Below are positions 639-40,828 of a stretch of DNA of 64,000 nt, piece by piece; position 1 is the first letter of the stretch; every line of letters begins with the position of its first letter. The notes beneath the pieces were generated by a model. It ran no database searches, was not told where the DNA came from, and was given only the letters and a program-made list of their open reading frames with translations. The position numbers and the translations under genes are program-made. Origin of the DNA: Gammaproteobacteria bacterium (GTDB lineage: Bacteria > Pseudomonadota > Gammaproteobacteria > Pseudomonadales > Azotimanducaceae); NCBI GenBank assembly GCA_027297435.1, contig JAPUIA010000044.1:1-64000 (forward strand). Reading direction: 5' to 3'.

Positions 639-1307
639 TTATCCTTTGTTTTGCACGAAGGACTTTAACTGCCCGGCAAGGCTGCTACAGGCCGATGACC
701 TGACACGCGCTATCAGCGGGATGGGTATGATGATAGCCGGCATGTAGCTCGTGCCAATGGCTTCGGAACTGATGCGACCAGCGGTCTTGCCGGTTTTGAC
801 GTCCCAAACCGAGGCTTCGTACGACGAATCGTTCTCCCAGGAGAGGAAGCCGAAACAGCCCGCGGCGCCGGCTGTGACGGTACACGTGAGGGAGCCCGCC
901 GAATCGGTGCGTCGTGTCGAGCCTTCGATCCAGACCAAGTACTTCAGGCCCATCTGATCGAGCCGTGACGCCAACAGCGGCTGGTTGATGAGTTCTGGCA
1001 GGTCACTGGTGTTGATCGGTGCCGTCCGCGGTTCGAACCACGGAAACATGTCGTCCAGAAACTGCTGCTCGTCAATCACGCTGACGCTGTTGTCGCCTCG
1101 GCTCATACCATTGGCTACGCATGAGATGAAGTCCATTTCGGTTTCGCCCGGAGTAGGGCGGGTGCGCCGCCCGAGCACGACGACGGCGTCGCCCGATTCC
1201 ATACCCGTGTCCGCTTCACGTACCTCTTGAATCGTCGATGTCACGCAACCGCTCAAGTGCGCGATCACGAGGCCTACTAACAGAGCCCCGAAGCCCGGTA
1301 AGCGATG
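639..1307 (-). CDS. putative lipoprotein, last gene of the minus-strand cluster
   Basis: Lipobox-like HLSGC after hydrophobic signal segment (start at internal Met MHRLPGF); ORF track 639..1340. Confidence 0.6.
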   Translation of the reverse strand, partial: HRLPGFGALLVGLVIAHLSGCVTSTIQEVREADTGMESGDAVVVLGRRTRPTPGETEMDFISCVANGMSRGDNSVSVIDEQQFLDDMFPWFEPRTAPINTSDLPELINQPLLASRLDQMGLKYLVWIEGSTRRTDSAGSLTCTVTAGAAGCFGFLSWENDSSYEASVWDVKTGKTAGRISSEAIGTSYMPAIIIPIPLIARVRSSACSSLAGQLKSFVQNKG

Positions 1308-1309
1308 CA

Positions 1310-1930
1310 TCAAATTCCTCCCAGTTGGCCAGCCAGCCAATCCTTGACGACGGGTACGGAACGAAACTGTAAACTAAAGAACGCCATTGCGTCGCGGCAG
1401 GCTATCAGCGCGGCCTCCTGCAACGACGTCGATGAAGAGCCGTGGTTCTGCTTGTGCGACTTGCCATAGGCCGTGAGCGGCCACTCTCCAAGTAACACCC
1501 CACGGTTGTCGTACAACTTGAACTGGTAACGGATCCACACCTCGTAGTATTCGCTGCGAGTCTGCTGTGGGGTGGAAAACTGCAATTCCTCGATAGACGG
1601 CACCAGAATCGCCGCAACGTCCTGGTTGTCGCCAACCACCTGATCGACAAAGCGATGTCCGTAAAACATGCCTTCCAACAAGCTCTGGAACATCGGCCGT
1701 TGTGCAGAACCGAGCTCGATCTGCCATTCGCCACGGCCTTCGAGCGTTTCGGTGTGCGTATAGGAACTTAAGTTCTCGTCGATATAGATGCCGATGGGCA
1801 ATGGCACCTTGTCGACGACGGGCACCGGAAAGTCAGTGGGTACGGCAACCTTCGCACCGCCACAACCGGCGAGCAGCAACACCAGCAGCGTTAACCCACG
1901 GATTGACACCAATCTTGCGTCCTTAATCAC
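1310..1930 (-). CDS. putative lipoprotein
   Basis: Signal peptide with lipobox LLLAGCGG. Confidence 0.65.
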   Translation of the reverse strand: MIKDARLVSIRGLTLLVLLLAGCGGAKVAVPTDFPVPVVDKVPLPIGIYIDENLSSYTHTETLEGRGEWQIELGSAQRPMFQSLLEGMFYGHRFVDQVVGDNQDVAAILVPSIEELQFSTPQQTRSEYYEVWIRYQFKLYDNRGVLLGEWPLTAYGKSHKQNHGSSSTSLQEAALIACRDAMAFFSLQFRSVPVVKDWLAGQLGGI

Positions 1931-1963: not shown

Positions 1964-2956
1964 CTACTGGAATTCCGACAGGCCTACAAAGGTCCCGTCG
2001 TTACGGTACGCGAGTTCTCGCATCAACGCTGCGAAACGGTACACGCGTGCGTTGGGGCGCATCAGATGGACCGGAAAGCCAATCGCGTTGATGCGCACAC
2101 GGCGGCGGCCGGTTTCATCCGCTATGTTGACCCGGTCGATGGCGTCGACGACTTCCTCGATGGAGTTGCCACTGTAATCGTCGCCGAACACATAGATGCC
2201 GATACGTTTGTCCGGCGCGTAGAAGGTGTTGATAGCAGCTTGAATGCCTTCCACCGGGCTCGAGTTGCTGAACGGATGCCAGGTTCTGAGGGTGTCGATA
2301 ATGGCTCGTCGCCGCGCCGGCGTGTCGGGAATCCATCTACCTGCAAAGCTCGAGAACATGTACTCGCCCATGTCGTTCATGACCTGGATACCCTTCACGG
2401 TCGGGTAAATGGCGAGGGTTTCCTGCACTTTTCGCAAAACTTGCGGCCAGGCACCGTTGACCATGCTGCCGGACGTATCGATGACAAAGATGATCCACTC
2501 GCTGTCGACGGCAATACCCCCTACAAGGTCGGTTTGGCGGCGAAAATCACTACCCAATAAACGTTGCATCTCGTCGGTCAGAGATTGTTTGGCGACAGCA
2601 AGTTTCTGGGTTTGGATGGCGTTGTCGTCGTGCTTTTCCGTGGTTGCCAGGAACGCACCGAGAATGCGGGTGAGTTCCTGTTCCAGGCGCGCTAGCGCCA
2701 ACAGGTTGTCGTCGAGCTGGCCTTCGGCCATGGTCACCTGGCGGCGCAGTTCGTTGATCTGCCCTTTGATCTCGAAAAGCGCCAGTTCGCGACTCGCGAC
2801 CTGTCCTTCGTAATTGATGACCGATTTCTCCAGCAGGATCGGCTCCACGGTCTTGGTGATAATGAGCAGCAGGATGATCGCGCCAAACCCGCAGCTGATG
2901 ACGTCCAGAAACGACATGCTGAACTCTTCGATGCCTCGTCGGTTACGCGTTCTCAT
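1964..2956 (-). CDS. VWA-domain protein with N-terminal ExbD/MotB-like TM helix (VWA1)
   Basis: MIDAS motif FVIDTSGSM; N-terminal TM SFLDVISCGFGAIILLLIITK followed by coiled-coil-like segment. Confidence 0.85.
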   Translation of the reverse strand: MRTRNRRGIEEFSMSFLDVISCGFGAIILLLIITKTVEPILLEKSVINYEGQVASRELALFEIKGQINELRRQVTMAEGQLDDNLLALARLEQELTRILGAFLATTEKHDDNAIQTQKLAVAKQSLTDEMQRLLGSDFRRQTDLVGGIAVDSEWIIFVIDTSGSMVNGAWPQVLRKVQETLAIYPTVKGIQVMNDMGEYMFSSFAGRWIPDTPARRRAIIDTLRTWHPFSNSSPVEGIQAAINTFYAPDKRIGIYVFGDDYSGNSIEEVVDAIDRVNIADETGRRRVRINAIGFPVHLMRPNARVYRFAALMRELAYRNDGTFVGLSEFQ

Positions 2957-4042
2957 CTAGGGCCAATCTCGTGAGGGAGCCATATACGCGCCCCCTGTCG
3001 TGCGTGCCAGGTTCCAGTAGGCGGCGGACGCGAGAGGATCGCCTTCCATGGGAAACAGGATGACGTTGATGGGTACCTGGTTCGGCAATTTGGCGAGTGC
3101 GTTGCGGAACAGATCCATGCGACCGCTTCCGGAGATAGTCGCACGCCGCGGGGGACGCGTACCCTGTGTCGGTAGCGAGTCGATGATCAGGTAGACGTTG
3201 TCGGGCAACGGCGTGAGGTTTCTGAGCTTCAACACGAGATTTTCGAGGCTCGTTCCGCCTGCCGGAATGATCTTTTGCAGGCTGGTGATCGCTTGATCGA
3301 GCGATCGGCCATCACCCAGCGGTACCCATTGGTCGTTGCTGTCATCGATGAGCGATGACGCTTGCGTGTTGAACGCGAACACCTGAAACGACGCATCGAG
3401 AGGCAGTTGGGCCGCAAGCCACTCCACCGTGCGCACGGCACGTTGCCACTTGGGAGACAGACGCTGGCGTTCTTCCGACATGTTACGCCGCCGCAGCACG
3501 TTGACGATCGTATCGTCCAACATGCTTCCCGAGATATCGATGGCGATGAGGATGTTCTTACCGCCGACCTTCAGGCCGGTCAGGTATTGTCGATCGCCTT
3601 CGCCGACAAAGCTGCGGACCCGCCCGCCTTCATTCGCTTCGTTCAAAGCTTTCAACCGTTTGAGTTCCACCTCGCGGCTGTCGACGTCGGACTTCAGCTC
3701 GTTGAGGCTTTCTAACTGGGCCAGCGAGACGGCATCGAGCTCGTTGAAATCCTCACGGGTGAGTTCGAGGTCGAGCGTCGTACTGACGAGCTTTCGATCC
3801 GAATCATCTACGCGTTGCAGCAGCTCGTCGATGCGTTCTTTCAGTTCGACCAGATCGCGCTCGCCGTTTTGTACCTGGTAGTCGAGCAACCGAATCTCCG
3901 ACAACAGGTCTTTGTTGACGACCTTCACCGAGTCTTCGATGTCGTGGTTGATGATGAGAAAGATGAGTATCACCGCACCGAAGCCACACGACATGACGTC
4001 CAAGAAGGCCAGCGAAAAGACGTTCATCCGCCGCCGTGCCAC
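2957..4042 (-). CDS. VWA-domain protein with N-terminal ExbD/MotB-like TM helix (VWA2)
   Basis: MIDAS motif IAIDISGSM; N-terminal TM AFLDVMSCGFGAVILIFLII; likely GTG start (VARRRMNVF) directly after upstream stop; ORF track 2957..4162. Confidence 0.83.
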   Translation of the reverse strand: MARRRMNVFSLAFLDVMSCGFGAVILIFLIINHDIEDSVKVVNKDLLSEIRLLDYQVQNGERDLVELKERIDELLQRVDDSDRKLVSTTLDLELTREDFNELDAVSLAQLESLNELKSDVDSREVELKRLKALNEANEGGRVRSFVGEGDRQYLTGLKVGGKNILIAIDISGSMLDDTIVNVLRRRNMSEERQRLSPKWQRAVRTVEWLAAQLPLDASFQVFAFNTQASSLIDDSNDQWVPLGDGRSLDQAITSLQKIIPAGGTSLENLVLKLRNLTPLPDNVYLIIDSLPTQGTRPPRRATISGSGRMDLFRNALAKLPNQVPINVILFPMEGDPLASAAYWNLARTTGGAYMAPSRDWP

Positions 4043-4043
4043 G

Positions 4044-5180
4044 CTATGCCTCCACGACGATGAGCTGGTAGGTCTTGTCGTCTTTGGTGACGACGTCGCC
4101 GAGCTTGCCCTCGCTGGGCAGCCCAAAGGGATTGTTGGCGAGCGGGTAAGCGCGGTTGCCAAGTAGCACGTGCGTGGCTCCCGGCGCCGCCGGCGCTACC
4201 TCGCGAACGACGTGTTCGTATGGCAGTTGCGTGACGAGTCTCAGCTCGCCCTTGGAAAGCATTTCGGCGTGTCGTGCAAAGCCCGTCACGAGTGCGTCCG
4301 CCTCTATCGGCGTTGCCTTGATGTCGAGATCGTCGAGGGCTCCAAGCAAGCCAGGCAACGCAGCGCTGCGCGGACTGACCACTACGCTCGCCGAGCTCGG
4401 CAGCTTCTGTGCCAGCAGGCGAAACCGCTGGCTGAGCTTGCTTTGCAGGGCGGCACGATTGACGTGCGCCCGTCGGACGTGACCGTTGTGCATGATATCG
4501 ATCGTAAAATCGTCCCCGCTGTCACGGCCCCGCGACCAAGCATGTATCTGATCGTAGAGTTGCTGTTCGGTGTCCGCGGCGTGCAGCGGATCGAATCGCG
4601 TGTCTTGAACAAAGCGATCGGCGAGCAATTGGGCCCAGCCGTCGACGCACGACATGAAACCACACCCCGACAACGTCTCTGCCTTGCGCCGTCGTAGCTC
4701 ATCGCCGACGTCGAGTTCCGTCAAACAGGCGAGGTTTTGATGTAGGTCGAGCACCCAGGCGTTGGTGGGCAGCTCGATCGCGCTTGCCATCAGAACTGCC
4801 GTATCGACGAACCCCGCTATGTTCACGCCGGCTTCTTGGGCGATGCCGAGCAGCACGCCCAACTGATCGTTGGTCAGCGTGCCAGGCACCGCAACGACAA
4901 GCTCTTCGGTGACCAACGGTCGCAGTTCCAGCAGGTGTTGATACACGAGGTCCGCGTGATTGGCCGCTTGCTTTCCGGCCACGGGCAAAGGATCGGCATT
5001 CAGTCGCGATAGATACTGTTGGTTGGCTTGTTGCGGAAGCAAGCGGGTCATTTTCAAGGCTTCGTCTCCGAAGCGGTTGCCCGCGTCCGAAACATGAGCG
5101 ACGGCCGGTTGCTGATAGATCGGTGCACCGTTGCGATAGAGCGACAGCTCCGCGTCGTTGAGTTCTAGAAGCAACGTCAC
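4044..5180 (-). CDS. putative actin/Hsp70-fold ATPase-like protein
   Basis: Segments GNRFGDEA and VVAVPGTLTNDQLGVLLGIAQEAGVNIAGFVDTAVLMAS resemble Hsp70/actin-fold motifs; no exact family recognised. Confidence 0.5.
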   Translation of the reverse strand: MTLLLELNDAELSLYRNGAPIYQQPAVAHVSDAGNRFGDEALKMTRLLPQQANQQYLSRLNADPLPVAGKQAANHADLVYQHLLELRPLVTEELVVAVPGTLTNDQLGVLLGIAQEAGVNIAGFVDTAVLMASAIELPTNAWVLDLHQNLACLTELDVGDELRRRKAETLSGCGFMSCVDGWAQLLADRFVQDTRFDPLHAADTEQQLYDQIHAWSRGRDSGDDFTIDIMHNGHVRRAHVNRAALQSKLSQRFRLLAQKLPSSASVVVSPRSAALPGLLGALDDLDIKATPIEADALVTGFARHAEMLSKGELRLVTQLPYEHVVREVAPAAPGATHVLLGNRAYPLANNPFGLPSEGKLGDVVTKDDKTYQLIVVEA

Positions 5181-5980
5181 GAACCCCGAACCTGCAGATG
5201 TCGAAGCAGTCGTTGGTCGCAGTAGGTTTGCGTGTCCAACACCAGGCGTTCCTGGATGAGCTGCAATTGGTGCATCAGGAACATGATGACGATGCTGATC
5301 ACCAAGGCGACGAATGTCGAATTGAACGCCACGCCCAGGCTGGCGGTGACGCCGGAGATGTCACCCTCCACCGCCTTGTATGCCTGTCCGAGCGCCCCGC
5401 TGATACCACGCACCGTACCGATGAAGCCGATGGACGGAATCGCCCACGCGATATAGCGCACCATCGACAGCTCGGTGTCGAGACGGTCCGACTCGGTTTC
5501 ACAAACCGCTCTAACCGCTTCCGAAACGTCTTGCACGTTGCGCGTCGCGGCGAATCTCTGCAGCGCCGACATCAATGCGCGCGGCAGGAGGCAGGCTTGA
5601 GATTCTTCAGGCAGCGCCTGGATGGGTCGCGTGTATTCGCGGGTATCCTCGGGGAGGATGCTTATGCCTTCCGTCACTTTGACGATGTCGCCCTGGAAGA
5701 GGGCGCGCTCACGTATCGCGCTGCGCCCCTTGTAGCCCATCATCGCGATAGCCCAAAGCATGAGGATGAAGCAGCTCTCTTGCTCGTAGTCTTTCAAGAC
5801 GATATACAAGGATTGCTCTTCATCGACGGCTTCTCCGGCAGCCGCTTGCTCGGCCCGAACCTCCAAGATGGCGGTCGCGTTGGGCCTGATCAGGGTGATG
5901 TAGACCAGATGCACGATGATCAGCGCGATCACGAGTGCGGAGATCTGATAGATGAGTTCGAAAGGCAGTTGTCGATTCAA
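5177..5980 (-). CDS. MotA/TolQ/ExbB-family proton channel protein
   Basis: AIPSIGFIGTVRGISGALGQA...ITASLGVAFNSTFVAL-type conserved TM block; stop overlaps next start. Confidence 0.85.
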   Translation of the reverse strand: MNRQLPFELIYQISALVIALIIVHLVYITLIRPNATAILEVRAEQAAAGEAVDEEQSLYIVLKDYEQESCFILMLWAIAMMGYKGRSAIRERALFQGDIVKVTEGISILPEDTREYTRPIQALPEESQACLLPRALMSALQRFAATRNVQDVSEAVRAVCETESDRLDTELSMVRYIAWAIPSIGFIGTVRGISGALGQAYKAVEGDISGVTASLGVAFNSTFVALVISIVIMFLMHQLQLIQERLVLDTQTYCDQRLLRHLQVRGS

Positions 5981-6203: not shown

Positions 6204-8261
6204 TTATTCTGCAAATCGGGCCAATCTGAAGCCCACGTCGCGTCGGCCGTCGGCGCCGTAGTCGCGAAACGACAATCTGAGATCGGTGGTCGTACCATGC
6301 ATCCAGCTCGAGCCGCTGATGACATGATACTCCCCTTCAACTGGACCAAGCGGACCGGTACCTGCCTCGACCGGGTGCTGGTAGAAGTCGTGAATCCATT
6401 CGGCGACGTTGCCGCCCAAGTCATCGATGCCTTTGCTGTTTGCCGCGAACGTGCCCACCGGTGCGGCGACCATGTGGTTGTCGTTGTAGCCGAAGATGAT
6501 TCGACCGACTAAATGGGCCGCCGCGCGGTCGGCGTAATTGCCGTGTCGATCCGGGGGCGGTAGCGCGCCTCCCCACGGAAAGCGCAGCAGCGATTCGCTG
6601 CCTTCGACATGCCGAGCAGTCCACGCCCACTCCGCTTCGGTTGGCAACCGGTAACCTCTCGCAGTCGGGTTGGTTCCCACGATCTTGCCAAATTCTTCGA
6701 GGTAGAAAGGCTTAAGCCCGTCTTGGCGCGACAACCAATTGCAATAGCGCGCGGCGTCCGCCCAGCTAATATCTGCAACGGGTTGTTCGTCCTTGTTCAA
6801 ACGCTGCTCTTCATAGATACCGGAATCGTGGCCACTAGCGAAGGCTTTGAATTGGGTGTTGGTCACTTCTTGGGTGCCGAGATAGAAAAGTTGCTCGAGT
6901 TCGACGTTGCGTAGCGTCTCGTTAGCCCTACGGCCGGGTTCGCGTCGCGAAGCACCGAGTTGAATGGGGCTTGGATCGAAGAGCTTCAGCGTTTGACCCG
7001 CTGCGGTGGTGATGGTGGGCTGGAGTGCGGCTAGTCGCGCTTCCGCGAGCGTCAAAAGTTTTATCCTGAGCTCTTGGGTGAGACCGTTGCGCGGGGTGAT
7101 CTCGGTAGTATATCCGGCGTAGCCGGCGAGTTTGATCTCCAGGCGGTGGACACGGGTCGGCAGTTCGACGGATTGGTTCGCCGATCCGAGCGCCTTACCG
7201 TCGACGAACAGTTCAGCTTGAGGCGGGTCGGCTTGGATGACCAGCATGCCGGTCAACCGTTCAAGGCTCAGATTGAGCGCGCGGCGTTCCCCCGTCGTCA
7301 GGTTGACACGCGTTTGGCGCGGCGCAAACCCCACCTTGAATATCTGCACGCGGTACGAGCGCCCGGACTGCAGGGCAATATCGACCGGAGACTCGCCTTG
7401 ATATTGACCGTCGATCGTCACCCCGGCTCTAGCCGGGCTCGTCCGTACGCTGAGTAAGCCGTCGGCTTGCTGCAATGCGACGCTGGGCAGCGTGCGTGCC
7501 TCTTCGGCGCCGACGAGTATGCGTTGTCGATGGCTCTTGTGGCCATCGAGCCGCAATTGAATTTCGTGCTCGCCGGCCAATATCTCCACCACTGCGGGTG
7601 TCAGTAACCCGGTAGCAACTTCGTCGACGAGGATTTCGGCGCCGGGCGGCTCGGTTTCGAATGTGATGTCTCCCCAGTTGGGCACCAACGCTTCTGAAAC
7701 TTGTTGGGGGCGATTACGTCCCTCGATGTCAACATCGATTTCTAGCACTTGGTAGCGAGGATGTGCGAACCGAAGATGTCGTGTGCCGGCGTCGATCAAG
7801 GTATCAGCGAGTGGCGTCATGCCCAGTGGGCGGCCGTCAACGGAAACGTAAGCGCCCTCCGGTTCTGAGGTGAGCATTACGACACCCGGCAGTGGGACGA
7901 AATCGAAGGTGAAAGACTGATTGCGCGCACTGGCGATATCGACCAACACATCCAGTGGGTAATAGCCATCGGCACCAGCAGTGACCCTGTACTGAGTCTG
8001 CAACATGAGATGCACGCCGCCGAATTCGAAGGCGGGACCGCCGGACACGGTGATCGAGTCAGCGCTGGGCGTGAACGTGAGTTGGACAGACCGCGCGGTG
8101 AATAGAAACAGGAGCAGCAGCACCGCGAGTGCGGCGAGCGTAAACAATGTCCACTGTGCTCGAGAAAATCGAGCCGGCCTTTCGACGACGGTCGTGCGTG
8201 GCTGATAGTGCACCGCTTGGATCGTGTTCGATTCGCTGGGCGGCTGTTCGGTCGCACTCAT
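6204..8261 (-). CDS. membrane-anchored protein with PEGA-like repeats and C-terminal FGE/SUMF1-fold domain
   Basis: TM WTLFTLAALAVLLLLFLF; repeated PPGAEILVD, SPARAGVTIDG, DPPQAELFVDG PEGA-like units; GYRLPTEAEWAWTAR...LGGNVAEWIHDFY...DVGFRLA; ATGA overlap with upstream gene supports start at 8261. Confidence 0.85.
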   Translation of the reverse strand: MSATEQPPSESNTIQAVHYQPRTTVVERPARFSRAQWTLFTLAALAVLLLLFLFTARSVQLTFTPSADSITVSGGPAFEFGGVHLMLQTQYRVTAGADGYYPLDVLVDIASARNQSFTFDFVPLPGVVMLTSEPEGAYVSVDGRPLGMTPLADTLIDAGTRHLRFAHPRYQVLEIDVDIEGRNRPQQVSEALVPNWGDITFETEPPGAEILVDEVATGLLTPAVVEILAGEHEIQLRLDGHKSHRQRILVGAEEARTLPSVALQQADGLLSVRTSPARAGVTIDGQYQGESPVDIALQSGRSYRVQIFKVGFAPRQTRVNLTTGERRALNLSLERLTGMLVIQADPPQAELFVDGKALGSANQSVELPTRVHRLEIKLAGYAGYTTEITPRNGLTQELRIKLLTLAEARLAALQPTITTAAGQTLKLFDPSPIQLGASRREPGRRANETLRNVELEQLFYLGTQEVTNTQFKAFASGHDSGIYEEQRLNKDEQPVADISWADAARYCNWLSRQDGLKPFYLEEFGKIVGTNPTARGYRLPTEAEWAWTARHVEGSESLLRFPWGGALPPPDRHGNYADRAAAHLVGRIIFGYNDNHMVAAPVGTFAANSKGIDDLGGNVAEWIHDFYQHPVEAGTGPLGPVEGEYHVISGSSWMHGTTTDLRLSFRDYGADGRRDVGFRLARFAE

Positions 8262-9763
8262 CGTTGCAACACCTCTTCGCAGCGAATATCCACCGGTGCC
8301 ATTTCCGGTCTTACCGTAATGTTGGTGCGAACGTCGCGACACCCATCCCGACTGCCTATCAATGTGTAGGCGCCCGGTCTCAAGTTGAGGCGCTTCTCTG
8401 AAAACTTGCCGAGTCGACCAACGTTCGACAGGATGACGTCAGTCGCATTATCCGAGTGCAGTAGCACCGGAACCGGGTTGCCATAAAGTTGCAATAGCTC
8501 GTCCACCTCTTGGACGATGCGAGCCAGCTGCGGACCATGGGGGTCGAGATTCTTGGCTCGGGCCAAAATTTGTTGTGCCTCTCGATAGAGGCGGTCGGAA
8601 GACAAACGTTCCGCGCCCGCGGCGATCTTCGAGAGCGTGTCGAACGATTGCTGTTGGATCTCTGCGCGTGTACGGCCTTGTTTGGCAAATTGGATGTTGG
8701 CGTCCAGCGTCAAAATAGAGTCATAGGCTTTGGCCGCCGCCTGCCACTGTTCCGTCGTTTCATAGCCCGCGGCCCGCAATCGGAACCTTTCGATCTCGAC
8801 GATCACGGTTTGTTCGGCGACCTGCTGCAGACCCCCTAGCGCAACGGCGTTGCCGGGATCGATAGCAAGGGCTCGATTGAAGGCGGTCTTTGCCGACTGA
8901 AACGACTGATCGTCCAGCGCGACAAAACCCTCGGACAAGTACGCCTGCAGGTTTTGTTGCGACCTGCCGTAGCGTGCTTTAGCGATGGCGTCACCAAGAC
9001 CCGGCGTGTCCGCATCCAGTGCCCGAATCTGTTCGTAGGTCGCTACTGCCTCCACCCAGAGGTTCGAAAGTTCCTGATTACGTGCCGTGCGAAATAGCGT
9101 AAGAACTTCGGGTAGCCGCTCAGCGCGTCTCATCGCGTGTGCCAGTTCTGCCTTGTCGGGTTTGACGAGTTCGGCGCGGGCGAGTTCGGCATCAGCAGCT
9201 TTTTGATTACGTGCATTGATGGCATCGATACCAGCGGACAAGCTTGCCGCGTACAGGCGTTCGCCTTCGTCGATCAGGTCGGCAAGAGCTTGGGTGGCCG
9301 CTTGATAACTCGCGATCGCCTTCGTGAAGCGCTCGACCAGAAACGCTTCATCCCCGGTGAGAGCCAATTCTTTCGCCGCGTCGTATGCAGCCTGACCCCA
9401 TGTGCCCACCTGCATGGTGTCTCTAAGTTCCAACTCCAACTCAACGAACCTACCGAGTTCGTCTTGTGCTTCTTGCCGGGCTTGCTCGCGCTGCAAAGCT
9501 TGAAATGGCGGTAGTTCAGCTTCTTTGGGTTGGTGCCGCGGCGTTTCCGTGCCGATGGGGACAATGGTCGCCGGAACCGCGTCTACCGGCGAGACGAGGT
9601 CGGGGGCAATCACGAACAAGGCATACAGGAGCACCCCGACGACTAGGGTGGCCAACCCAGGCAGCAACCAACCCGGTCTCGGCTTTGAAGGTTCGCTTGC
9701 TGGTTCTGCACTATGGCTCAGGCGAACCGCTTTCGGCTTGATGATGCCCGGATCTTCAGACAT
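8258..9763 (-). CDS. single-pass membrane protein with TPR-like helical repeats
   Basis: TM WLLPGLATLVVGVLLYALFVIA; TPR-like ALDDQSFQSAKTAFNRALAIDPGNAVAL. Confidence 0.7.
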   Translation of the reverse strand: MSEDPGIIKPKAVRLSHSAEPASEPSKPRPGWLLPGLATLVVGVLLYALFVIAPDLVSPVDAVPATIVPIGTETPRHQPKEAELPPFQALQREQARQEAQDELGRFVELELELRDTMQVGTWGQAAYDAAKELALTGDEAFLVERFTKAIASYQAATQALADLIDEGERLYAASLSAGIDAINARNQKAADAELARAELVKPDKAELAHAMRRAERLPEVLTLFRTARNQELSNLWVEAVATYEQIRALDADTPGLGDAIAKARYGRSQQNLQAYLSEGFVALDDQSFQSAKTAFNRALAIDPGNAVALGGLQQVAEQTVIVEIERFRLRAAGYETTEQWQAAAKAYDSILTLDANIQFAKQGRTRAEIQQQSFDTLSKIAAGAERLSSDRLYREAQQILARAKNLDPHGPQLARIVQEVDELLQLYGNPVPVLLHSDNATDVILSNVGRLGKFSEKRLNLRPGAYTLIGSRDGCRDVRTNITVRPEMAPVDIRCEEVLQR

Positions 9764-9768
9764 TGGAT

Positions 9769-10965
9769 CTAGACAGATTCGGGTTCTTCTGGAGCCGGCG
9801 GCGGAAGGCCCAAGTCTTCGAAGTACACTTCACGCAGAATGCGCCGTAGCTCGGTGTATTGCTCGTCGACGGTGCCCTGCAAACGTACCGTTTGGTTTTC
9901 CAGTTCAATGGTGTGTGGGATGATCTCCGCTTCTGCGGAGACCCCGATCTCTTGCAACACTTCGGCTTGCATTTCTGCCTCGTGGCGTTTTCCAATGGCA
10001 CTTTTCAACAGGGCTGCGCCGCTCAGCACGCTTACCAGGCCGCTTGCGTCGACATACGCATCGCTGCTCTCGTAAATGGCTAGAACCCCACCGACGATGG
10101 CACCCGCGCCGCCAATGGCGCGGGCTCGCGATTGGGCCTTCAGCTGACGGTACGCGATTGCCTCGCTGTAAGTCGCAGCTCGCCAGTTCTGATAGGCGCC
10201 AGACATGTCGCGGTTAAACTTCGCGTAGTACTCATCGAGCGTGTCGATGAAGAGATATTCGCGTTCGCGAACCCGGCGCACCCGGGACAACATGGGGTCG
10301 TCATGGGCGGGCAGCCGCGTGAGCTCGACGCCATCGGATGTCTCGCGTACGTGGCTTGCAAATGCGTCCGGTGCGAAATCCCTCGCAAACTTCATCTCTG
10401 CGGTTGCGCGGATCGTCGCTACCGTTTGATCATCGAGGGTCAGTCGGTATATGAGCATGTCGTCGGCGAGGTTCTTGTAGTTCGACTGGAACGGGTCGAT
10501 GTCGGGCGGAATGGTGTCTTCATAGGCGTACTTGCTTGCGAGCGACTCGTAGGTTTTGGTGAACCACTCGACGCCCCTCGCATCGATGACGGTCACCTCA
10601 ACGCGTAGACGTTCGCCGTTGGACTCCAGAATCTTACCTGTCACAGTCACATCGACCGCATGCGTGGGTCGTGGCACTACTCGAACAGCCCCCCAATTGC
10701 CCGTGCTCTGTAGTAGGTTCTTCGCAAAGTAGGGTATGAACTGTGCCTCGGCCCTTCGAATATCGGGCTGAATCAGCTGCTTGACCTGTTCGTCGAAGGA
10801 TTCCGGTACGTTGGCATCGAACACGGCCACGCCGATGTCCAATAGCTGGTCTTCCGACTGCGTGCCTTCGAATTGTTGGGGTGGCGTCATGTCGACCATG
10901 CGCACCTCGTGGGTTACGCAAGCGCTCAAGCCCAGACAAATTGCAACGAGACAATAGCGAGTCAC
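9769..10965 (-). CDS. large putative lipoprotein
   Basis: Lipobox CLGLSACVT; alpha/beta domain; Gly/Ala-rich hydrophobic segment AIGGAGAIVGGVLAIYES. Confidence 0.65.
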   Translation of the reverse strand: MTRYCLVAICLGLSACVTHEVRMVDMTPPQQFEGTQSEDQLLDIGVAVFDANVPESFDEQVKQLIQPDIRRAEAQFIPYFAKNLLQSTGNWGAVRVVPRPTHAVDVTVTGKILESNGERLRVEVTVIDARGVEWFTKTYESLASKYAYEDTIPPDIDPFQSNYKNLADDMLIYRLTLDDQTVATIRATAEMKFARDFAPDAFASHVRETSDGVELTRLPAHDDPMLSRVRRVREREYLFIDTLDEYYAKFNRDMSGAYQNWRAATYSEAIAYRQLKAQSRARAIGGAGAIVGGVLAIYESSDAYVDASGLVSVLSGAALLKSAIGKRHEAEMQAEVLQEIGVSAEAEIIPHTIELENQTVRLQGTVDEQYTELRRILREVYFEDLGLPPPAPEEPESV

Positions 10966-11000: not shown

Positions 11001-12044
11001 TTAGCTTCCTTTATAGCGACGGTACTCGTCCCACAACTTCTCGCGTAGGTCCGGATCGCTCTCCAGCATAGCGGCTTCCCGCAGTTGACGGGCGATGATG
11101 TCGTCGTCGCGAGCATCCGGGACATCGTCAGGCATCTGAGCGCCCGCCGTACGTTGCGGCATCGGTGGGCTGGGTATCTGACGCGATTGGGGGAATGGAG
11201 CGCTGATGACACCCTGATCTGGGGTCGTGGGGCGACTGGACGAGGTTGACCCCGGTGGTACGGTCCCGCCACCCAGATTCTCGTTGGAGCGTTGTTCCAA
11301 TATGGCCCGTTCGGCCAAGATCTCGCCATCGAATTCTTCGAGGGCCCGCTCGAGTTCGTCGTCGCCGCCCGAACCTGAAGAGCCGGACGGCATCGGCGGC
11401 GCAGCAACCCGTTCTACGGGTGCCACGACTTCGTTGCTAATTTCCCAACCGTCGCCCGCAGGGGGACCACCGGGCTCACCCTGCTGCCAACCTTCCTGAC
11501 CCGAACCACCACCGGGCGCACCGGGTGAACCCGCCTCGCCGCCCGGGTTGCCGGATCCGCCGGACTCGTTGATCTCCCAGGCGAGTTCACCTTCTTCCGT
11601 GGCGTCGCTACCGCCTAAGGGGTCGTTGCCGCCGAGGGGATCGCTGCCATCACCTTGTTCCCCACCTGGCACGTTGCCGCCGGGCCCGGTTGGAAGGGGT
11701 TCGCCGCCGCCAGGTGATCCTGAAGAACCGCTTTCGGAACCCGGCTGTCCACCTGGTCCCGGTATGCCGGGTATGCCCGGTAAGCCTGGAAGTCCGCTGG
11801 GACTTGGAAGTCCGGAACCGCCGCCGCCGCTCGAGCCGCCTCCACTAGAGCCGCCTCCACTAGAGCCACCGCCGCTGGAACCGCCACCGCTAGAGCCACC
11901 GCTGGAACCGCTCTGTCCACTTTGGCTAGGCGATTGTGGGCTTTGGGGGAACAGCGGTGTAATGGGGGCGCAAGCCCATAGCAGGCTCAATAGGACGACG
12001 AGGCTGGCCTTCAACAACGTCTTCATCGTGCGGCTCCGAGGCAA
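11001..12044 (-). CDS. Gly/Ser/Pro low-complexity lipoprotein with collagen-like triplets
   Basis: Signal plus lipobox LLSLLWACAP; (GGGSS)n and PSGLPGLPGIPGIPGPGGQPG; conserved-looking C-terminus RQLREAAMLESDPDLREKLWDEYRRYKGS. Confidence 0.7.
   Translation of the reverse strand: MPRSRTMKTLLKASLVVLLSLLWACAPITPLFPQSPQSPSQSGQSGSSGGSSGGGSSGGGSSGGGSSGGGSSGGGGSGLPSPSGLPGLPGIPGIPGPGGQPGSESGSSGSPGGGEPLPTGPGGNVPGGEQGDGSDPLGGNDPLGGSDATEEGELAWEINESGGSGNPGGEAGSPGAPGGGSGQEGWQQGEPGGPPAGDGWEISNEVVAPVERVAAPPMPSGSSGSGGDDELERALEEFDGEILAERAILEQRSNENLGGGTVPPGSTSSSRPTTPDQGVISAPFPQSRQIPSPPMPQRTAGAQMPDDVPDARDDDIIARQLREAAMLESDPDLREKLWDEYRRYKGS
11820..11925. repeat. imperfect c. 15-bp tandem repeat encoding Gly-Gly-Gly-Ser-Ser
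   Basis: ccgcctccactagag / ccaccgccgctggaa units read directly. Confidence 0.8.
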
Positions 12045-12126: not shown

Positions 12127-13632
12127 CTAACCTCCGGTCGGTAACGTGCGTCTCGGGAAATAACGGAATTCGTGCCGATAATGCAGTCCCTCGGTAGCGA
12201 CCGCCTTGCCTTCGACCATGCGCGGACGGTATCGAGCCGCTCGCATGCTTCTGCGCACGCGAAAGTCCATCATCCCGGGCGGTTCGGAGGCCGTGGTTTT
12301 TAGATCCTGGATCGAACCGTTAACCGAGACGCGATAATTTATCTCTACATATCCGGACCGTTCTTCGTCTCGCATGGAAGTCGGTGGCGGTTTGGGATCG
12401 GTCGGTAACGGGAAATGCAGGATCTTGGGCTCGCTGAAATACGCGTGTTCATCTACCGACTCGATCTCGGTCATCAACGAGAATACGTGCTCGTAAAGAG
12501 GGTGGGCCTTGCGGAATGCTTCGAACAACAGGTGCCAGTCGGCGAGTTCCAAAATGGCTTCGGCAACGATCATCGGATCGGTGTTGGGATCATCGCGATA
12601 AATACCAATCATGCGTTGCAGGGCCTGCTCGCCCTTGTGGGAGCTGTTCAGCGAGAGTTGCTGGTGTCGGTATAGCGATGCGCGGTTCGATGATCGTGAA
12701 AGTGGCACGAAAGCACCGACTTCTTCGCCGTCATGGAGGTAGAAGGGCGGAAACCGCTCCAAACGGTAGGTTTCAATGAGCCCCTTGAGGGCCGGGATGG
12801 CAGAGGGCGTGCGTTCCTTGCCGTTGGCTTCGAAGATGCGGATGGCGCTTTGGTACAAGCCCCTTGCGGGGAAGATGTTGTAGGTCCCCCGATACCATTC
12901 GGCCAGGTGAAAGGTGCCGGGTAGCATGGCTTCGCTATAAGCACCATAGGCCTTCAACAACACCTCGTAGGCATACTCCTCCCGGTCGTTGGCTCCGGCA
13001 TGATCACCTAACGCCTGCAGGGATTCTGACTCTTTGTAGACGGCCTCGATCTGTTCGGGTGCATACAAACCCTTGTTGACACGATTGATGTGAACGGCGC
13101 GTTGATAGTGTGACAGCGCTGCCTCGAACTCGCCTTTGCCGAAGTGAGAATCTCCAAGCAGCGTCAGCGGTCGGGCCAGGTCCTGGTGGAAGCGATGATG
13201 GGCGTTTTCGATCGCACGAATGAAACGAATCAGGAACTCTTCGGCGTCATCGTACTCGGTGCTGGCAATGCTCTCCGCCACGGCGTCGAGCGGTGAACTC
13301 GGTTGATCCAGCGCCTCTTCGATGGTTTCGATCGGAGGTTGTTCGGGTAGCGCCTCGCTAGTCTCCGGGACCTCCTCTGCAGCCAGCGTAGGCAGGTAGA
13401 CGAGCGCCAACAGTCCGGTGAGCAAACCGATGGTGCCGTGCGTGAGGACGCTGAAGGCTCTCTTTCTCAGGACGCTGAAGGCTCTCTTTTTCAAGACGCT
13501 AAAGGCTCTCTTTCTCAGGACGCTGAAGGCTCCGCTGTACGTCGTTGACTGCATCGAAATACCCGTCGGTAGTTGGGTCATTGGACCGCAATTTAGACCG
13601 TGCGTTCGAGTGTGAGATCGCATATTCGGCAA
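12127..13632 (-). CDS. TPR protein with TonB C-terminal-like domain
   Basis: TPR-like helices (FGKGEFEAALSHYQRAVHINR) and C-terminal VEINYRVSVNGSIQDLKTTASEPPGMMDFRVRRSMRAARYRPRMVEGKAVATEG; true start may be internal (Met at 13581 or 13554). Confidence 0.7.
   Translation of the reverse strand: MPNMRSHTRTHGLNCGPMTQLPTGISMQSTTYSGAFSVLRKRAFSVLKKRAFSVLRKRAFSVLTHGTIGLLTGLLALVYLPTLAAEEVPETSEALPEQPPIETIEEALDQPSSPLDAVAESIASTEYDDAEEFLIRFIRAIENAHHRFHQDLARPLTLLGDSHFGKGEFEAALSHYQRAVHINRVNKGLYAPEQIEAVYKESESLQALGDHAGANDREEYAYEVLLKAYGAYSEAMLPGTFHLAEWYRGTYNIFPARGLYQSAIRIFEANGKERTPSAIPALKGLIETYRLERFPPFYLHDGEEVGAFVPLSRSSNRASLYRHQQLSLNSSHKGEQALQRMIGIYRDDPNTDPMIVAEAILELADWHLLFEAFRKAHPLYEHVFSLMTEIESVDEHAYFSEPKILHFPLPTDPKPPPTSMRDEERSGYVEINYRVSVNGSIQDLKTTASEPPGMMDFRVRRSMRAARYRPRMVEGKAVATEGLHYRHEFRYFPRRTLPTGG
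13446..13537. repeat. 24-bp tandem repeat (about 4 copies)
   Basis: ggacgctgaaggctctctttctca repeated at 13446, 13470, 13494, 13518; encodes RKRAFSVL units on the minus strand. Confidence 0.9.
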
Positions 13633-40396: not shown

Positions 40397-40828
40397 GTGG
40401 GTTTGGTGAGCAGACGCCGCGGACGGCACGAAGCCACGGTCGAACTCACGCCGTTGATCGACGTCGTGTTCTTGTTGTTGATCTTCTTCATGGTATCGAC
40501 AACGTTCATTCGCGAGACGCAACTCAAGATAGATCTACCGGAGGCATCCGGGGAACTCCTGGAGATCGAAGAGGGTTTCATTGAGATCACGATAGATCAG
40601 CAGGGCGACTACTCGGTCAACGATCGTGTGCTCGTAAACAATGAACTCAACACGCTGATTCGTGCGTTGACCGACTTGATGCAAGATCGGTCCGCCCCAA
40701 ACCGTTTGATCATCACGGCCGATGCCCGTACGGCCCATCAATCGGTGGTGCGTGCTATGGATGCCGCCGGCAAAGTGGGTCTCATGAGAATCAGCATCAC
40801 AACCCAGCAGCCGGAAGATGAAGGATAG
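40397..40828 (+). CDS. exbD: ExbD/TolR family protein
   Basis: VELTPLIDVVFLLLIFFMVSTTFIRETQLKIDLPEAS; GTG start 40397 or 40406. Confidence 0.9.
   Translation: MGLVSRRRGRHEATVELTPLIDVVFLLLIFFMVSTTFIRETQLKIDLPEASGELLEIEEGFIEITIDQQGDYSVNDRVLVNNELNTLIRALTDLMQDRSAPNRLIITADARTAHQSVVRAMDAAGKVGLMRISITTQQPEDEG

Follow-up and report, generated by a model that had tools for sequence, protein, structure and literature searches.

Flagella, iron uptake, gliding and defence against phage are powered by 5:2 membrane motors, and in the known TolQ, ExbB and MotA types the pore threonines and an Asp of the plug are needed for ion passage. The closest described systems are the TPH-vWA motors of Williams-Jones et al. 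2025, in which heterologous pairs of transmembrane (TM)-anchored vWA proteins are encoded beside a tolQ-like gene, without tolR or exbD (PMC12204202, Fig. 4c,d). As set out in the relevant section of that paper, the proteins were described from Idiomarina homologues and have a conserved TM Asp together with a threonine ring; AF3 models place the Asp pair within the ring, and rotation inside the pentamer was proposed (PMC12204202). A further group treated there, the SHLS-type vWA force transducers, is bound to the side of the motor through an SHLS/His motif, often with two tolR-like genes (PMC12204202, Fig. 4a,b).

The locus analysed here lies in the first 14 kb of a 64,000-nucleotide stretch of DNA (the window). 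It has in common with the TPH-vWA motors, as these are described in the section concerned, a vWA pair, the TM Asp, a TolQ-family neighbour and the lack of TolR, ExbD or MotB in the locus, and differs in the extra operon genes of the window's lineage, the two being likened by description (PMC12204202). The idea of a VWA-plug motor had, by the account in that section, already been published in 2025 as a structure prediction, which the sequence-only reading of the window re-derived independently, and the window is a well-supported new example. Since the core idea is in print, the main value of the present analysis is the stronger conservation evidence and the list of partners. Relative to that section, what is new is the conservation of the operon beyond its core and the presence, next to the motor, of a degenerate Hsp70-fold protein: PEGA and FGE are unmentioned in the main text of PMC12204202, and the Hsp70/FHA protein, the conservation of the MIDAS and the failed ExbD/MotB homology do not appear in its relevant section. 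Apart from Williams-Jones et al. 2025, a literature search returned no experimental work on these proteins.

Gene order and distribution

The genes form a tightly packed set on the minus strand, reading from 13632 to 639 (Table 1). The two adjacent VWA ORFs reported from the sequence alone, with the helices quoted for them and the DTSGS and DISGS motifs, are all present. VWA1 starts directly after the VWA2 stop with no gap, VWA2 starts one base past the stop of the Hsp70-fold gene, and the motor gene (5980-5177) and the Hsp70-fold gene (5180-4044) overlap by four bases. This packing suggests that expression of the motor, Hsp70-fold, VWA2 and VWA1 genes may be coupled and equimolar.

Table 1. 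Features of the VWA locus, in coordinates of the window.
Feature	Position	Strand	Basis and remarks
VWA1	1964..2956	minus	ORF, ATG start, 330 aa; TM helix residues 12-36, coiled coil 49-134, VWA ~150-330
VWA2	2957..4042	minus	ORF, GTG start, 361 aa; TM helix 13-35, coiled coil 44-137, VWA ~160-361
VWA1 TM helix with Asp18	2849..2923; codon 2905-2903	minus	AF2 model helix 12-36
VWA2 TM helix with Asp15	3938..4006; codon 4000-3998	minus	AF2 model helix 13-35
VWA1 MIDAS motif DTSGS, D160/S162/S164	2465..2479	minus	Conserved in 29/29 aligned relatives
VWA2 MIDAS motif DISGS, D169/S171/S173	3524..3538	minus	Alignment of 29 relatives
MotA/TolQ/ExbB-family pore subunit	5177..5980	minus	PF01618 E 1.7e-14; T189 codon 5416-5414, T222 codon 5317-5315
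Degenerate Hsp70/actin-fold (ASKHA) cytosolic protein	4044..5180	minus	Profile match to Hsp70 NBDs, best E 2.9e-5
Single-TM PEGA-repeat + formylglycine-generating-enzyme-like (FGE) protein	6204..8342	minus	PF08308 1.3e-44, PF03781 5.3e-34
Single-TM TPR protein	8258..9763	minus	TPR_2 1.3e-4, below Pfam cut-off
Lipoprotein-like protein with TolB_N-like domain	9769..10965	minus	PF04052 E 0.0017, below cut-off
Gly/Ser-rich lipoprotein-like protein	11001..12044	minus	ORF; operon position same in many relatives
TPR + TonB C-terminal domain protein, first gene of apparent operon	12127..13632	minus	TPR_12 3.6e-9; TonB_C PF03544 1.7e-7
Lipoprotein-like 1, downstream of VWA1	1310..1930	minus	38/67 relatives with room
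Lipoprotein-like 2	639..1340	minus	38/67 relatives with room

Among relatives, the VWA1 and VWA2 genes are always paired and their order is fixed. VWA2 is found on the same strand in 77/77 relatives with room, and a MotA/ExbB-family gene lies on the same strand as the VWA genes in all 72 with room. The same-strand association extends to the genes for the PEGA/FGE protein (61/66 relatives with room), the TPR protein of the 8258-9763 type (56/63) and the TolB_N-like lipoprotein (51/56). The operon seems to be built of two separable modules, motor/VWA and PEGA/FGE-TPR-lipoprotein. Five loci (L066, L068, L069, L075 and L095) carry the motor and VWA pair without a same-strand PEGA/FGE-TPR-lipoprotein module; in L095 that module lies downstream on the opposite strand.

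The VWA system is present in 26 of 39 nearby genomes, and in 8/143 genomes sampled from the class and 13/249 from the phylum. Genomes of one family (f206) carry an ExbB-VWA2-VWA1 layout. Four close genomes (L032-L035) have a further, diverged VWA pair in which the Asp is kept, and in three of these (L033-L035) the motor gene of the second copy adjoins VWA2, with no Hsp70-fold gene between.

The Asp-containing helices, the ring and the search for another plug

The 19-residue segment of highest hydrophobicity is FLDVISCGFGAIILLLIIT for VWA1 and FLDVMSCGFGAVILIFLII for VWA2; that of the true ExbD of the window (40397-40828) is LIDVVFLLLIFFMVSTTFI. Asp is residue 3 of the segment in all three. It is the sole charged residue of the hydrophobic helix core in the 29 + 29 aligned VWA1 and VWA2 relatives, and is invariant in wider sets composed mostly of MAGs labelled Gammaproteobacteria or Desulfobacterota (Asp18 of VWA1, 110/110 homologues; Asp15 of VWA2, 105/105). 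Distant relatives found by profile search keep the Asp while the CGFG that follows it is changed to SSAFA, ASGLG or CAFG; thus the Asp, and not the whole motif, is under conservation. The N-termini of VWA1 and VWA2 are Arg-rich, and, following the positive-inside rule established for membrane topology, this points to an N-in orientation with a periplasmic VWA domain. AF2 confidence is low for the VWA TM helices (pLDDT ~50-70). One distant VWA-type protein (L186) has the helix INIFSMSALDLFASAMGAFILIML, in which the Asp is kept, and the 3.5 kb examined contain no motor gene; the protein may belong to the family with its ring encoded at an unlinked site.

An alignment by eye in the sequence-only reading had equated these helices with that of ExbD. 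The shared position of the Asp bears this out, but the profile match is at chance: in ungapped profile comparisons the VWA1 helix scores 11.1 against ExbD, with a permuted-column mean of 11.3. The comparison with MotB is weak (12.2, mean 10.3, with 58/400 permutations equally high), while VWA1 against VWA2 gives 74 where the permutation maximum is 25.6. With hhalign, the register to MotB is correct Asp to Asp and the match is top among the controls, at a probability of 11-17%, which is not significant. Pfam searches of seven VWA N-terminal fragments gave no ExbD or MotB_plug match (positive controls ~1e-13 for ExbD and 1e-20 for MotB), full-length and N-terminal VWA sequences gave no match to ExbD/TolR PF02472 (positive control 1.1e-13), and the VWA proteins gave none to MotB PF13677. 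Profile alignment of the N-termini to the ExbD and MotB families, by which the likeness was to be checked, thus went against it, and the claim that the VWA helix is homologous to ExbD/MotB was dropped because the profile-profile comparison was not significant. The likeness is one of position and chemistry, rather than of proven common descent.

The product of 5980-5177 was aligned by profile to TolQ (PDB 8odt), in which T189 corresponds to T145 and T222 to T178, although the whole match is weak (E 0.008). Both threonines are invariant in 78/78 homologues. The locus is like ExbB-ExbD and TolQ-TolR in its PF01618 ring, pore threonines, plug Asp at equal depth and N-in orientation, and unlike them in having two different candidate plug proteins, each with a coiled coil and VWA domain and a helix that is not detectably homologous. 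With MotA-MotB and ZorA-ZorB it shares an Asp helix in register, and MotB and ZorB likewise combine a helix in the pore with an anchoring domain in the periplasm; however, in contrast to MotA-MotB, there is no MotB_plug match and no OmpA-like peptidoglycan-binding domain, a VWA domain being found instead. Zorya defence was considered and rejected, as there are only marginal ZorA matches (E 0.006-0.12) and no ZorB.

An ExbD profile search of 1.335 Mb around the loci of 80 relatives found no ExbD-like ORF, and the same profile does detect the ExbD genes of the window's own genome. That genome has five PF01618 matches, three of them with ExbD genes beside them (C29, C251 near 40 kb, and C301), and no MotB_plug match at all. 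No ExbD or MotB gene adjoins the motor gene at about 5.2 kb of the window, whose only partners are the VWA genes. In C301 (G000:C301:1882-3463) an ExbB gene is followed by two different ExbD-like genes, which might encode a second pair of heterologous plug proteins in this genome.

VWA domains and the Hsp70-fold neighbour

In sequence-profile searches of the PDB, coiled coils headed the matches for both VWA1 and VWA2, and fold searches were therefore used. The AF2 model of VWA1, made from a 29-sequence alignment, consists of a helix, a coiled coil and a VWA domain predicted with confidence (VWA blocks mostly pLDDT 89-97), and that of VWA2, from an alignment of the same size, follows the same plan. 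In Foldseek the VWA1 model matches VWA proteins as well as integrin I-domains, at a best E of 2.5e-7, and the VWA2 model the VWA subunit of TFIIH, BatB and others (best E 2.3e-7); anthrax-toxin-receptor VWA domains are among the matches. A VWA_2 domain is found in 28/29 VWA2 relatives. The paralogy of the two proteins covers most of their sequence (hhalign E 7.8e-28); their VWA domains have diverged, each with its own invariant residues.

The MIDAS set is complete in VWA1 (D160/S162/S164 with invariant S230/S232 and D259), where the second motif has Ser in place of Thr, and in VWA2 (D169/S171/S173, T264 in 28/29 and D288 in 29/29 relatives). Both domains had been said to keep a DxSGS MIDAS, and they do so with complete metal-site residues on a VWA fold; the description as metal-ion adhesion domains likewise holds for the fold and the MIDAS residues, by alignment, AF2 and Foldseek. 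The sites may bind metal and a ligand.

In the product of 5180-4044, alignment to Hsp70 shows the phosphate loop DLGGGT replaced by LDiqlhr, and VGGSTRIPKV by lspraarlpgl. Glycines of the phosphate loop and the adenosine site are lost, and thus nucleotide binding looks degenerate; the protein may be a pseudo-ATPase adaptor. Its gene is missing in 10/74 relatives, a count in which L111 is corrected for an N gap, and in those relatives motor and VWA2 abut, so that it is an accessory and not a core part. What looked like an ExbB-ASKHA fusion in L111 was set aside, as the ORF crosses a stretch of N. An FHA domain was found in one scanned relative (1.6e-11), and the L111 protein has, by reading, a C-terminal FHA-like stretch. 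The window's copy seems to be without a C-terminal FHA-like domain.

A candidate motor model and its alternatives

In the model favoured here, the products of 5980-5177, 4042-2957 and 2956-1964 would assemble into a 5:2 membrane motor driven by protons (or sodium), with a ring of five MotA/ExbB-family subunits enclosing two TM helices as its plug, most probably one from VWA1 and one from VWA2. Asp18 and Asp15 would carry the ion past the ring of T189 and T222. Each plug helix would lead into a periplasmic coiled coil and then a VWA domain, in place of the periplasmic domain of ExbD, TolR or MotB. Ion flow would turn or tilt the two-helix plug, and the coiled coils would relay the motion to the VWA domains, which probably grip a periplasmic or outer-membrane partner through the MIDAS and then pull or turn it. 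What the analysis shows is the set of genes and their constant adjacency, the invariant residues, the predicted folds and the absence of ExbD; the assembly of the complex, its heterodimeric plug, the ion flow, metal binding at the MIDAS and the partner we infer.

A 5:2 motor with a VWA1/VWA2 plug had been proposed from the sequence alone. The proposal fits the adjacency, the lack of an ExbD nearby, the invariant Asp and threonines, the MIDAS and the paralogy, and the AF3-based model published in 2025 agrees with it; homology of the helix to ExbD failed the profile check. Against the motor model stand the lack of significant helix similarity to ExbD and the weak similarity to MotB, the low pLDDT of the TM helices and the Ser in the VWA1 MIDAS. 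On balance it is highly probable that the VWA proteins are the plug of a 5:2 motor with the MotA/ExbB ring. Given that reading, the plug is probably a VWA1/VWA2 heterodimer.

A variant compatible with the motor part is that the plugs are homodimeric, VWA1 and VWA2 each giving a motor of its own kind within one and the same type of ring. ExbD, TolR and MotB are homodimeric in the established motors, and the helix of VWA1 or VWA2 alone has every needed feature. However, the genes are never found apart, and their fixed order and direct adjacency in the window suggest equimolar use; the divergence of the two VWA domains, each with distinct invariant residues, also argues against it, and we regard this variant as possible if unlikely. 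Alternatively, the VWA proteins could be anchored beside the pentamer in the manner of TolA or TonB, with an ExbD borrowed from elsewhere and the Asp serving helix packing or an outer contact. The three ExbD loci of the genome could supply such a plug, and the first vWA family of the published account binds laterally in the AF3 models given there (PMC12204202). The window's proteins resemble those SHLS-type transducers, as described in that section, in combining a TM anchor with a vWA domain next to a TolQ-like motor, but lack the SHLS motif, and the locus lacks ExbD/TolR; by reading of the sequences, neither VWA helix has the SHLS/His TM motif of the lateral transducers, nor do the helices of the TPR and PEGA/FGE proteins. 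An invariant Asp at ion-carrier depth, with invariant threonines and no linked ExbD in 80 loci, would also be hard to explain, and lateral anchoring is improbable. That the pentamer is no longer ion-driven and forms a static trans-envelope scaffold or sensor with a structural Asp is very improbable, as the Asp and both threonines, which are the requirements of ion conduction, would then be expected to drift, although the degenerate look of the Hsp70-fold neighbour would suit a complex turned regulatory.

If the motor model with a heterodimeric plug is true, the reach of 5:2 motors extends to a trans-envelope machine that has integrin-like adhesion domains for its output and a two-protein rotor, which would allow each ion-carrying Asp to be tested separately. 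A more elaborate scheme is doubtful: that the plug, instead of descending from ExbD/MotB, evolved anew from a VWA-bearing heterodimer or was fully replaced by one, asymmetric by design, with a cytoplasmic pseudo-ATPase Hsp70-fold regulator (carrying a phosphothreonine-reading FHA domain in some relatives) and coupling to a PEGA/FGE-TPR-lipoprotein chain.

The conserved operon supplies concrete candidates for what the motor would pull on, namely its lipoproteins and the PEGA/FGE or TPR proteins as putative partners of the VWA domains. The TPR/TonB_C protein (12127-13632) is possibly an outer-membrane-facing link. It occupies the same place at the head of the operon in several relatives, and a short stretch of its N-terminus is repeated (AFSVLRKR/AFSVLKKR). 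The product of 11001-12044 is strongly Gly/Ser-repetitive, and its position is kept in many relatives.
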